DNA from: Paenibacillus xylanilyticus
Lineage (GTDB): Bacteria; Bacillota; Bacilli; Paenibacillales; Paenibacillaceae
Assembly: GCF_009664365.1 (NCBI RefSeq)
Contig: NZ_CP044310.1
Coordinates: 4,591,001 to 4,655,000 of the forward strand
Direction: 5' to 3'
DNA: 64,000 nt
Position numbers and translations under genes: made by a program. Positions 55,178 to 59,456 of this stretch are shown piece by piece (position 1 is the stretch's first letter; the number at the start of each line of letters is the position of its first letter). The notes under the pieces were generated by a model, which was not told where the DNA came from, searched no databases, and saw only the letters and a list, made by a program, of their open reading frames with translations.

Positions 55178-55837
55178 TTACGCATTTCGTCTGACAAACT
55201 TGTGGGCTCCCCCAACCGCTATGACCAGACCAGCCATTGCCACAGGTAACAGCGTGTGTGCTTCCGCTGTCAGGCTGCCAAGCCACTGACCCAGCTTCGG
55301 ATCACTCATCACCATTTCACCTGCCGTGAATGCCAGGATTCCTGAGCCCGCGAATACCAGAATCGGGAATCGTTTCAACAAACCGACAATTAAGCCGCTC
55401 CCCCACACCACAATGGGAATGCTGATGGCTATTCCGATGACGATAAGTGCCAGGTCTCCATCAGCTAATGCTGCTATAGCAAGCACATTGTCCAGACTCA
55501 TTACAAAATCGGCAATCAAAATGGTCTGAACCGCTTTCCAGGTCGTCGAAGCCTCCCGAATATGTACTTCGTCTTCGTTTTGAAGCAGGAGCTTCACGGC
55601 AATCCAGAACAGTAAGATCCCGCCCGCTGCCTGTATAAAAGGAATTCCGAGCATTAGTACCGCCGCAAAAGTAAGCACACACCTTAGTACAACTGCACCC
55701 AAAGCACCCCACCATACGGCTTGCTTACGCTGTTTCTCCGGCAGATCCTTACTCGCAAGCGCGATAACTACCGCATTATCTCCACTCAAAACCAGATTGA
55801 TCATTAGAATTTCAGTCAACAGCCACAATGTATCCAT
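55178..55837 (-). CDS. TerC-family integral membrane protein, paralogue 1
   Basis: A 219-residue protein with seven to eight membrane segments and the TerC metal-binding-like motifs LVLSGDNAVVIALA near 17-30 and DFVMSLDNVLAIA near 115. B. subtilis relatives YjbE/YkoY/YceF are implicated in manganese export or in loading manganese into secreted enzymes. It is transcribed divergently from a paralogue with a 105-base gap, too short for a yybP-ykoY manganese riboswitch. Confidence 0.93.
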   Translation of the reverse strand: MDTLWLLTEILMINLVLSGDNAVVIALASKDLPEKQRKQAVWWGALGAVVLRCVLTFAAVLMLGIPFIQAAGGILLFWIAVKLLLQNEDEVHIREASTTWKAVQTILIADFVMSLDNVLAIAALADGDLALIVIGIAISIPIVVWGSGLIVGLLKRFPILVFAGSGILAFTAGEMVMSDPKLGQWLGSLTAEAHTLLPVAMAGLVIAVGGAHKFVRRNA

Positions 55838-55942: not shown

Positions 55943-56641
55943 ATGGAGCTTTTTAGCGCTGTTTTTTGGCTTGCTTTGGTGAAAATTGTATTTATTGATC
56001 TCATGCTGGCTGGCGATAACGCCATCGTTATCGGCCTGGCTGCACGTAATTTGCACCCTTCTGTGCAGAAAAAGGCTATTCTCTACGGGACAGCGGGTGC
56101 CCTAGTGATTCGGATTGTAGCCACAGTGGTTGTACTCTGGCTGCTTAAGGTGCCTTGGCTGCTGCTTGTAGGAGGCGTTTTGCTGATCTGGATTGCTTAT
56201 AAACTATTGGCTGACCAAGGTGAAGAACATAGTGATATTAAGGCAGGCAGCTCCTTATGGGTTGCCGTTCGCACCATTGTCATTGCAGATGCCGCCATGG
56301 GACTTGACAATGTCATTGCAGTGGCTGGCGCCGCTGAACAGCATCTGGTACTGGTTATCATCGGATTGTTGATCAGTGTACCGATCATCGTATGGGGAAG
56401 CACCCTGTTCATCAAATTGATCAATCACTTCCCATGGATTATATATCTGGGAGCCATTGTACTCGGTTATACCGCATCCCACATGATTACAGAGGAACGC
56501 CGACTTGTGCCGTTTTTCACCGAGCATCCCGCCCTTCGCATTCTTTTTATCGTGCTGGTCGTTGCAGGTGTGGTATTCGCAGGATACCGCAAACGCTCTA
56601 GCAGCAGACAAGGTGGAGAGCACCAGCGATCCTATTCGTAA
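55943..56641 (+). CDS. TerC-family integral membrane protein, paralogue 2
   Basis: A 232-residue TerC protein with the same two signatures, DLMLAGDNAIVIGLA near 17-31 and DAAMGLDNVIAVAGAA near 113, and a basic C-terminal tail. It is diverged from the left-hand copy but clearly homologous. The stop is followed within 15 bases by half of a terminator whose other half now lies 1.5 kb away beyond an IS element. Confidence 0.93.
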   Translation: MELFSAVFWLALVKIVFIDLMLAGDNAIVIGLAARNLHPSVQKKAILYGTAGALVIRIVATVVVLWLLKVPWLLLVGGVLLIWIAYKLLADQGEEHSDIKAGSSLWVAVRTIVIADAAMGLDNVIAVAGAAEQHLVLVIIGLLISVPIIVWGSTLFIKLINHFPWIIYLGAIVLGYTASHMITEERRLVPFFTEHPALRILFIVLVVAGVVFAGYRKRSSSRQGGEHQRSYS

Positions 56642-56684
56642 AATAAAGATACACAAAAAAGGACCAGCCGATTTCCTAAACTGT

Positions 56685-56735
56685 ACCCTATAAGATAGAC
56701 ACTTTAAAAAAGGTCATCTTGTAGGGTCTTTTTTT
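56685..56735 (+). terminator. Terminator-like hairpin inside the IS left end
   Basis: ACCCTATAAGAT (56685-56696) pairs with ATCTTGTAGGGT (56716-56727), one pair being G-U, followed by CTTTTTTT. It should stop transcripts entering the IS from the terC side. Confidence 0.75.
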
Positions 56736-56772
56736 GTGTACAATGAATAAAAAACGAGCGGTGGTCAAGCAA

Positions 56773-57222
56773 ATGTCAAAAAAACACTTTACAACGCAAG
56801 AGCAAGATCAGTTGAGAAGAAATCCTTATGTGAAAAATGTTAGCGCTAAAGCCATTACGTATACGGATGCGTTCAAAGAACGATTTATTCAAGAACACAG
56901 TCAAGGTATGCTTCCTAGTGAGATCTTTCAGGAAGCAGGATTTCCCATTGACGTTTTGGGTGCAACCCGGATTCGAAAGGCTTCCAATCGATGGCGTACG
57001 GCATTTCAGGAACAAGGATCTGCTGGATTAACGGATGGTAGAAAACACGCCTCAGAACGTTCTCTGACCCGTGAATTAAGTCTTGAAGAAAAATATGCCC
57101 GTTTGGAAGCGAAAATGAAATGGCTTGAAGCGGAGAATGAATTCTTAAAAAAGCTCGATCAACTCGAAAGGCAGATGAGAAGAAAAAAATCCAACTCAGT
57201 ACGCGACAAAAATTTAAACTGA
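56773..57222 (+). CDS. IS3-family transposase OrfA (helix-turn-helix)
   Basis: A 149-residue DNA-binding half of the transposase. It has two helix-turn-helix-like parts (FKERFIQEHSQGMLPSEIFQEAGF; RKASNRWRTAF) and a C-terminal leucine-zipper-like coiled coil (LEEKYARLEAKMKWLEAENEFLKK) for multimerisation. I start at MSKKHFTTQEQ, typical of this subgroup; ATG 56743 is possible. The end contains the frameshift site and runs 32 bases past it before the stop. Confidence 0.85.
   Translation: MSKKHFTTQEQDQLRRNPYVKNVSAKAITYTDAFKERFIQEHSQGMLPSEIFQEAGFPIDVLGATRIRKASNRWRTAFQEQGSAGLTDGRKHASERSLTRELSLEEKYARLEAKMKWLEAENEFLKKLDQLERQMRRKKSNSVRDKNLN
57183..57189 (+). other. Slippery A7 site for programmed -1 frameshifting
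   Basis: Seven adenines lie near the end of orfA. A -1 shift here leads straight into the orfB frame through IQLSTRQKFKLIQEM with no stop, giving the OrfAB transposase, as is usual for IS3-family elements. Confidence 0.8.
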
Positions 57223-57230
57223 TTCAAGAG

Positions 57231-58100
57231 ATGTTGCATACATACTCTTTCCAACGCAAGGTGCATGTTCTTTGTGCTATTGCTGGCGTTTCACGTTCAG
57301 GCTATTACCACTATTGTAGTGAAGATGCCAGATTACATCGTCAAAAGCAGGAACAGAATGATCAGAAGATGAAAGCGATCATCCTGAAAGCCTACCATTA
57401 CCGTAGGAGGAACAAAGGCGCCCGTCAAATCAAAATGACGCTCGCACTTCAGTATGGCGTCGTATACAATCTCAAGCGAATCCGTCGGATCATGCAAAAG
57501 TACAACATCGTTTGTCCGATTCGAAAAGCAAATCCCACACGTCGTATGGCTAAAGCGACCCAAGAGCATCGAACCTGTCCCAACACGTTAAAGCGAGCGT
57601 TTAAGCCAGGGATTGCAGGCAAAGTTCTCTTAACGGACATCACATACTTAACTTATGGGATAAGTAAACGGGCCTATCTATCAACGATTAAAGATGCTGA
57701 AACGAATGAAATATTAGCCTATGAAGTCTCTGCTTCCCTTGGATTGGACATTGCGATGGAGACGTTGAAACAACTCCAAAAGCATCGGCATCTCACTTCG
57801 GATGCATTGATTCATTCGGATCAAGGATTCCACTATACAAACCCCAAGTTTCAAAAGCTTGTGAAACAAATGGGGTTAAAACAATCCATGTCACGCCGAG
57901 GAAACTGTTGGGATAACGCTCCACAAGAATCCTTCTTTGGGCATTTTAAAGATGAAACAAATTTCAAAACATGTATGACCCTGGAGGAGGTTAAGCAAGA
58001 AGTGAAGAGTTACATGATCTATTACAATTATTATCGAGGTCAATGGAACTTAAACAAGCTGCCGCCTGTACGATACAGACAGCAGCTTGAAGTAGCCTAA
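57231..58100 (+). CDS. IS3-family transposase OrfB (DDE integrase)
   Basis: A 289-residue catalytic half with a rve-type integrase core. The DDE triad is D136 (LLTDITYL), D197 (HSDQGFHYTN) and E233 (CWDNAPQESFFGHFK), with 35 residues between the last two, as the family requires. The N-terminus carries the HTH_21 region (CAIAGVSRSGYYHY). The frame is open upstream to the slippery site, so it is normally made as OrfAB. Confidence 0.93.
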   Translation: MLHTYSFQRKVHVLCAIAGVSRSGYYHYCSEDARLHRQKQEQNDQKMKAIILKAYHYRRRNKGARQIKMTLALQYGVVYNLKRIRRIMQKYNIVCPIRKANPTRRMAKATQEHRTCPNTLKRAFKPGIAGKVLLTDITYLTYGISKRAYLSTIKDAETNEILAYEVSASLGLDIAMETLKQLQKHRHLTSDALIHSDQGFHYTNPKFQKLVKQMGLKQSMSRRGNCWDNAPQESFFGHFKDETNFKTCMTLEEVKQEVKSYMIYYNYYRGQWNLNKLPPVRYRQQLEVA

Positions 58101-58214
58101 CCTTTTTTAATTGTCCTTGACAAGGGGTACATTTTATCCCATCGGCCGGTCCTTTTTCCATTACAGGTAACATAGTCCTTATTATGTCATTCTACCAATT
58201 CAAGGGGAATAGAA

Positions 58215-59456
58215 TCAGAACCAGTCTTCCTTGATTTCATTCCCCGTGTTATCACTGGTTGCAGGAGCTGCTTCGCCTGCGTGCAGAACGATGGTTTCCG
58301 TTTGAGCGACAGCTTCATCTACCCATTCCGGCAAATGGCTCATCGTTGCTTCAATTTTGTCCACGATGCGAAGATTCGGATTCGTTGTAGGTGATTTCGG
58401 CACGAAGAGGGTGCAGCAATCCTCGTAAGGCAGAATTGATATATCATATGTTCCAATCTGTTTGGACATTGTAATAATTTCCTGCTTGTCCATCATGACG
58501 AGAGGACGCAAAAGCGGGAGTTCCGTCGCACGTCCGATGACATTCATACTCGGCAGCGTCTGGCTTGCAACTTGACCAAGGCTATCCCCGGTAATTAGTG
58601 CAAGTGCCCGCTCACGTTCAGCCAGCTTGGTCGCAATTCGCAGCATGGAACGGCGCATCAGGGTGATGATCAGATTATCCTGACCCAGCTGGGTGAATGC
58701 CGTTTGGATCTCCGTAAAAGGAACCAGGTGCAGTTTGATGGTACCGGCATGATCAGCCAAGGCACGAGCCAGATCGATCACCTTTTCCTTGGCACGCTGG
58801 CTGGTGAACGGATAACTGTAAAAGTGTACACATTCCACTTCCAGTCCACGCCTCATGGAAGCCCATGCCGCTACAGGACTATCAATTCCTCCCGACAGCA
58901 GCGCCATCGCTTTGCCGTTAGTACCGAGAGGGAACCCGCCAACAGCGGGAATCACTTCATTGAAAATATAGGTCCCCTGATCTCTAATCTCTACTCGCAG
59001 TTCAATGTCCGGATTACGTACATCCACACGAAGCTGTTGGAACTTTCTTAATATCGGGGAACCCACCATGTGGTTCATTTCGTGTGAAGAATGAGGATAC
59101 TCTTTCCACACCCGGCGAGTATTCACTTTGAACGTCGTACCTTCCTTGAACTCGTTTTCTCTCTCATCCATGAAAGCTACAGCCGTTTCCACAATATCCT
59201 CAAGCACAGAAGGAGTTACTTTAACCGGACTGATGGACATTACCCCAAAAACCCGTTTCAGGACTGCGATCAGCTCTGTATGGGAATGTCCCCCCAGATC
59301 CACGTACAATCGTCCAAATTCCTTACGCAAGCTTGCGCCTGGATATGGCTTGAGCAAGGCCCTCACCTGAGTAATAATGGTTTTTTCGAATCGTGCACGA
59401 TTTTTACCTTTTAACATAAACTCTCCAAAACGGAGAAGCAGCATATCATATTTCAT
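58215..59456 (-). CDS. thiI: tRNA 4-thiouridine synthetase ThiI
   Basis: ThiI adenylates U8 of tRNA and inserts sulfur; the same family feeds sulfur to thiamin in some bacteria. The 413-residue product has an N-terminal ferredoxin-like and THUMP part (about 1-165) and the PP-loop ATPase motif LLSGGIDSPVA at 186-196. It has no C-terminal rhodanese domain, as in Bacillus, so sulfur comes from the dedicated desulfurase encoded six bases upstream. ATG behind AGGCGGATG. Confidence 0.96.
   Translation of the reverse strand: MKYDMLLLRFGEFMLKGKNRARFEKTIITQVRALLKPYPGASLRKEFGRLYVDLGGHSHTELIAVLKRVFGVMSISPVKVTPSVLEDIVETAVAFMDERENEFKEGTTFKVNTRRVWKEYPHSSHEMNHMVGSPILRKFQQLRVDVRNPDIELRVEIRDQGTYIFNEVIPAVGGFPLGTNGKAMALLSGGIDSPVAAWASMRRGLEVECVHFYSYPFTSQRAKEKVIDLARALADHAGTIKLHLVPFTEIQTAFTQLGQDNLIITLMRRSMLRIATKLAERERALALITGDSLGQVASQTLPSMNVIGRATELPLLRPLVMMDKQEIITMSKQIGTYDISILPYEDCCTLFVPKSPTTNPNLRIVDKIEATMSHLPEWVDEAVAQTETIVLHAGEAAPATSDNTGNEIKEDWF

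Follow-up and report, generated by a model that had tools for sequence, protein, structure and literature searches.

Target choice in the IS3 family of insertion sequences (IS) is mostly regarded as loose, with the PU-specific IS1397 as a special case. Intrinsic terminators are the insertion sites of a different class of mobile elements, the group IIC introns, which are retroelements that insert beside the stem. Within the IS3 family, IS1397 and ISKpn1 insert in the PU/REP palindromes of Enterobacteriaceae, and this specificity is reported to be set by the transposase (as summarized in PMC1525189). Another IS3 group, that of IS1447 from Clostridium thermocellum, employs +1 transcriptional slippage and is described as inserted in pseudogenes, hypothetical genes, and tdk; terminator targeting by this group was not found in that paper (PMC6211511). 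In the open-licence literature, we found no report of IS3 elements that target terminators, and priority is uncertain.

The element described here, located between terC and thiI, shares with IS1397 and ISKpn1 an IS3-family transposase and insertion in intergenic palindromes. However, the target of IS1397 and ISKpn1 is a single PU/REP family with a common sequence, whereas the targets here are sequence-diverse two-way terminators. The comparison with these elements that was drawn in the preliminary description of this DNA holds as a fair analogy with regard to intergenic palindromes and fails with regard to a repeat family of common sequence. Group IIC introns share terminator targeting with the present element, which, however, is a DDE transposon and is inserted inside the loop. 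IS150, ISEnfa3, and ISSau2, the named elements closest to the present one in the OrfB tree, have a transposase of the same DDE type and similar ends, and the reference copy of ISEnfa3 is also flanked by short inverted arms; however, the OrfB identity to these branches is only about 30%. The features in common with the IS1447 group are IS3 family membership, ends starting with TA, and duplications of 3–4 bp (PMC6211511).

The element and its site

The window, that is, the whole stretch of 64,000 nucleotides that was analyzed (G000:C1:4591001-4655000), comes from a single-contig genome of 6.45 Mb. As read from the sequence, a two-way terminator is interrupted inside its TTCCC loop by a 1,460-bp IS3-family element at 56677-58136, and the genes around the split terminator, terC/yjbE-like (+) and thiI (-), are convergent. 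The features of the locus are the following:

55943-56641, + strand: terC/yjbE-like gene, the 3' end of which is served by the terminator (PF03741, TIGR03717)
56655-56673: left half of the split two-way terminator, consisting of the A-tract, the 5' arm AAAAAAGGACCAGCCGAT, and the first loop base; pairs with 58141-58157 in the rebuilt site
56674-56676: left copy of the TCC target duplication, within the loop; single in the empty site of G012 (see below)
56677-58136, + strand: IS3-family element, 1,460 bp, with imperfect terminal repeats TAAACTGTACCC...GGGTACATTTTA; the genome contains two others of full length
56685-56735, + strand: terminator-like hairpin plus T7, from the left terminal repeat (dG -21.5 kcal/mol, z -3.8)
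56734-57222, + strand: orfA, from the ORF list, with a profile match to HTH_Tnp_2 (PF20310)
57183-57189, + strand: A7 run, likely -1 frameshift site from orfA to orfB (frames read directly)
57231-58100, + strand: orfB, DDE transposase (NF033516, PF00665; invariant columns D136, D197, E233)
58055-58089, - strand: 16-pair hairpin toward transcription entering from the right flank (by folding)
58137-58139: right copy of the TCC target duplication
58140-58157: right half of the split terminator, consisting of the last loop base, ATCGGCCGGTCC, and the T-tract (supported by folding of the rebuilt site)
58215-59456, - strand: thiI, the convergent gene on the opposite side (TIGR00342, PF02568)

OrfB scores 255 bits against NF033516 (cut-off 160), which identifies it as an IS3-type DDE transposase; in profile searches, it also matches PF00665, PF13276, and PF13333, and the catalytic D136, D197, and E233, all in invariant columns, are intact. 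As is characteristic of the IS3 family, the element contains two overlapping ORFs in the -1 phase with an A7 run, the orfB frame being open from 57141 and thus overlapping orfA (56734-57222), and it has terminal inverted repeats and a target duplication within the 3–5 bp range of the family (TCC here; 3 or 4 bp in the relatives of this element). By analogy with other members of the family, orfA and orfB are likely joined by a -1 frameshift at the A7 run. The true start of orfA is probably an ATG internal to the 56734-57222 ORF. Adjoining the IS are two TerC/YjbE-family genes that lie back to back in divergent orientation, at 55178-55837 (-) and 55943-56641 (+).

Removal of the IS together with one copy of TCC yields the join AAAAAAGGACCAGCCGAT-TTCCC-ATCGGCCGGTCCTTTTT. 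The minimum free energy (MFE) of this rebuilt join is -23.7 kcal/mol for one strand and -31.2 kcal/mol for the other, compared to -8.8 and -13.1 kcal/mol for shuffled joins (z -6.6 and -6.8, respectively). A sister species (G012, L080), the nearest in which this locus is intact, possesses the orthologous terC-thiI spacer without the IS, with 96% identity over 1,337 bp. This spacer reads AAAAAAAGGACCAGCCGATTTCCCATCGGCTGGTCCTTTTTT, that is, the predicted join with an identical TTCCC loop, from which it differs in tract length and in one C/T in the stem; the uninterrupted terminator is also present in three further species (L081-L083). The preliminary description had placed the IS exactly in the loop of the terminator between terC and thiI, and both the TCC duplication and the rebuilt fold agree with this placement; the comparison with a close IS-free relative that it proposed recovers the predicted empty join.

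Sites and phylogeny of related elements

The genome from which the window comes contains two further full-length copies of the element (100% and 96% identical), one relative with 67% identity, and two that are more distant. Together with the window element, these make six, all of which (6/6) are located within terminator hairpins, with a 3-bp duplication in each case, and every site is intergenic and harmless-looking. Additional relatives were sought by scans of the genus, the family, and the phylum, plus named genome contigs. Element ends were set from the similarity of the terminal repeats and the target duplication, with structure ignored, or alternatively, from end motifs common to copies within one genome. 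The sample consists of 183 rebuilt empty sites that are unique by flank; the elements are related and thus are not independent lineages. Under a fixed rule that requires 6 or more enclosing pairs, a folding energy of -12 kcal/mol or lower, and a 4-base tract, 125 of the 183 sites are terminators, and under a similar, not identical, rule, so are 2.3% of random genome positions and 4.3% of ORF-free positions.

The centre of the cut falls on the dyad, with a median dyad-to-cut offset of 0.0. The mean MFE of the rebuilt 60-nt sites is -20.6 kcal/mol versus -9.7 kcal/mol with the flanks swapped (n=143, duplication-bearing sites), and in none of the five groups did any of 100 permutations reach the observed mean. 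Chance, or coincidence at a single locus, is ruled out by the 183 sites and the permutations. The possibility that terminators attract every IS in these genomes is ruled out as well, by four control groups (two IS1182-like, one IS256-type, and one 386-aa PF01609 group), in which 0 of 16 insertions are in terminators under a rule similar to that for the 183 sites. The suggestion of the preliminary description that the element may recognize hairpins or terminators is upheld by all six sites in its own genome and by the majority of those among the relatives, and the contrary outcome, a majority of copies in coding or unstructured DNA, was encountered only in other IS types and in outlying IS3 clades.

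About one-third of the rebuilt sites miss the strict terminator rule; decay, rearrangement, or wrongly set ends may account for some of these, and L033, L037, L055, L263, and L264 are real exceptions to terminator siting. The insertions of two species (L013, duplication AGT; L043, duplication GTC) are offset by a single base in a seemingly orthologous terminator, which suggests independent insertions into one target. A separate observation concerns a 1,548-bp IS with a 472-aa PF01609 transposase and ends CAGATTGTAGACAAA, present in four copies in genome G024 (L320-L323), in which the target duplication of about 19–31 bp is the whole terminator hairpin, with a terminator on each side of the IS. 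This unrelated element appears to home to terminators as well, by another geometry.

Terminator siting follows the transposase tree (OrfB; 126 rows, midpoint root, weak deep forks). Terminator sites are found in the clade of the window element, in a clade with fused ORFs and ends TAAACTGGTACCC, and in the TGAACTGTGACCC and TGAAGTGCACCCC clades, in which OrfB is about 36–50% identical to that of the window, and further, in Clostridia, Bacillaceae, and in one case, in Rheinheimera (L304). Such sites were not found in the clade that includes IS911, IS600, and IS1500A (0/8), in a small inner group from gut Clostridia (L263, L264, L267, L269, L281), or in another small inner group of plasmid elements from Listeria, Enterococcus, and Staphylococcus (L362-L364). 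IS150 is placed among the terminator-targeting lineages, apart from IS911, IS600, and IS1500A, in this midpoint-rooted tree with weak deep forks. Among Firmicutes, the trait extends across deep IS150-like lineages and is broader than the preliminary description envisaged; the two-way terminator serves deep lineages from many genera as a structural target class. IS150 of E. coli is uninformative about the trait, since it is found mostly at a single type of locus: the majority of the IS150/ISKpn8 reference copies in E. coli, Salmonella, and Klebsiella (L385-L395, L355, L358) adjoin hokA, hokB, or a plasmid hok, which is a distinct and narrow target.

Target structure and competing explanations

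The composition of the rebuilt sites is symmetric around the cut, with an A block at -22..-13 and a T block at +13..+22, and includes no fixed bases at the cut itself. A central hairpin is present at 75 of the 106 two-tract IS sites versus 39 of the 311 genomic A4..T4 pairs (p 5e-29), and tracts on both sides are present at 66 of the 89 strong-hairpin IS sites versus 19 of the 115 ORF-free genomic hairpins (p 4e-17); the odds are approximate given that the IS sites are drawn from many genomes and the background from 400 kb of a single one. Neither tracts alone nor hairpins alone are sufficient for targeting. The stem arms vary between sites, without a consensus, such that only the tracts and the pairing are common, and the distances of the left and right tracts vary independently (r 0.06). 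The original proposal of hairpin targeting is refined accordingly: the hairpin stands, but not any hairpin serves, an A-tract plus a T-tract being preferred. An orientation preference derived from the C/G skew of the arms was considered and found to be invalid because reverse complementation leaves the skew of a hairpin as it is; background terminators have the same arm skew as the IS sites, and the arms in clade D are more skewed (23:1), with the background of the clade D genomes lying outside the sample.

Judging from these sequence comparisons, the element is very probably an IS3-family (IS150-like) transposon with a transposase that selects two-way intrinsic terminators for insertion. Such a target would be a palindrome composed of an A-tract, a stem arm, a small loop, a second arm, and a T-tract; the transposase would direct strand transfer to the dyad centre, with a stagger of 3 bp (sometimes 4 bp), and would itself read symmetric or hairpin-forming DNA, as reported for IS1397 and ISKpn1. 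Insertion would be nearly harmless because the sites are located between genes and the IS ends carry inbound terminators that would succeed the split one; the element probably spreads with little damage. The intergenic, harmless-looking sites in the genome of the window would also be expected if the IS inserted without preference, or without preference within AT-rich intergenic DNA, and selection retained only the between-gene copies. However, selection explains neither the centring on the dyad nor the two-tract preference among ORF-free hairpins, and other IS groups of the same genomes are absent from terminators; such survivorship seems highly improbable.

The location of the insertions at terminators also fits a transposase that follows paused RNA polymerase, a nascent RNA hairpin, or an R-loop without reading the DNA palindrome, and the same could be said of the weak excess of one-tract sites with the T-tract to the right of the IS (18 vs 8, p 0.08). 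Transcription coupling does not, however, predict the excess of two-tract over one-way terminators, unless convergent transcription matters, and we consider it unlikely. A tentative alternative, the chances of which fall somewhat short of even, is that the transposase binds a pair of half-sites in duplex DNA (the A-tract and part of the stem, twice) rather than an extruded hairpin, with the palindromy reflecting the need for both half-sites. The symmetric A and T blocks and the requirement for tracts besides the hairpin are compatible with such binding, but stems that vary from site to site without a consensus, arm pairing far above that of swapped arms, and the lack of correlation between the left and right tract distances argue against it. 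Recognition of two-way terminators by the transposase is directly testable, with a single defined site in which the arms can be mutated and compensated, and terminator homing would explain how such elements multiply without gene damage.

Terminators carried by the element

The hairpin at the left end of the window copy is formed by the terminal repeat ACCCTATAAGAT and its pairing partner ATCTTGTAGGGT, is followed by T7 (dG -21.5 kcal/mol), and faces transcription entering from the left flank. An inbound-left terminator is present in 101 of the 183 elements versus 6 of 183 shuffled ones, and a hairpin facing inbound transcription from the right in 93 of 183, the latter being a raw count. In the right-hand hairpin of the window copy (58089-58055, minus strand), the stem is strong and the T-tract is poor; in several relatives, this T-tract is strong. 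We infer that insertion replaces the split terminator and shields the transposase gene, and it may exchange terminator for terminator; the IS-borne terminators predict that neighbour genes are still insulated after insertion. A broader proposition, which we consider evenly balanced, is that one deep branch of the IS3 family, the IS150-like lineages across Firmicutes and some Gammaproteobacteria, is made up of transposons that home to terminators. These elements would recognize a structural class rather than a sequence and carry their own end terminators, so that insertion exchanges terminators; if so, the same recognition would include the PU/REP targeting of IS1397-type elements as a special case.

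Several remnants and arrangements of related IS were also observed. At G000:C1:875215-875322 (L010), a decayed right-end remnant of a related IS has kept its hairpin, AAAAAAGCTGCCGTCTGTAAAGTACAGACAGCAGCTTT, and similar matches of about 100 bp occur in many species; old IS ends may persist as terminators. In genome G185 (L138), one copy directly adjoins the left-end hairpin of another copy, and an IS-borne terminator may itself be a target. Genome G054 contains a stretch of about 230 bp (L031/L063) in which the two ends of a related IS are joined and the middle is absent (matches to 10-126 and 1344-1460); it may be a non-autonomous derivative.
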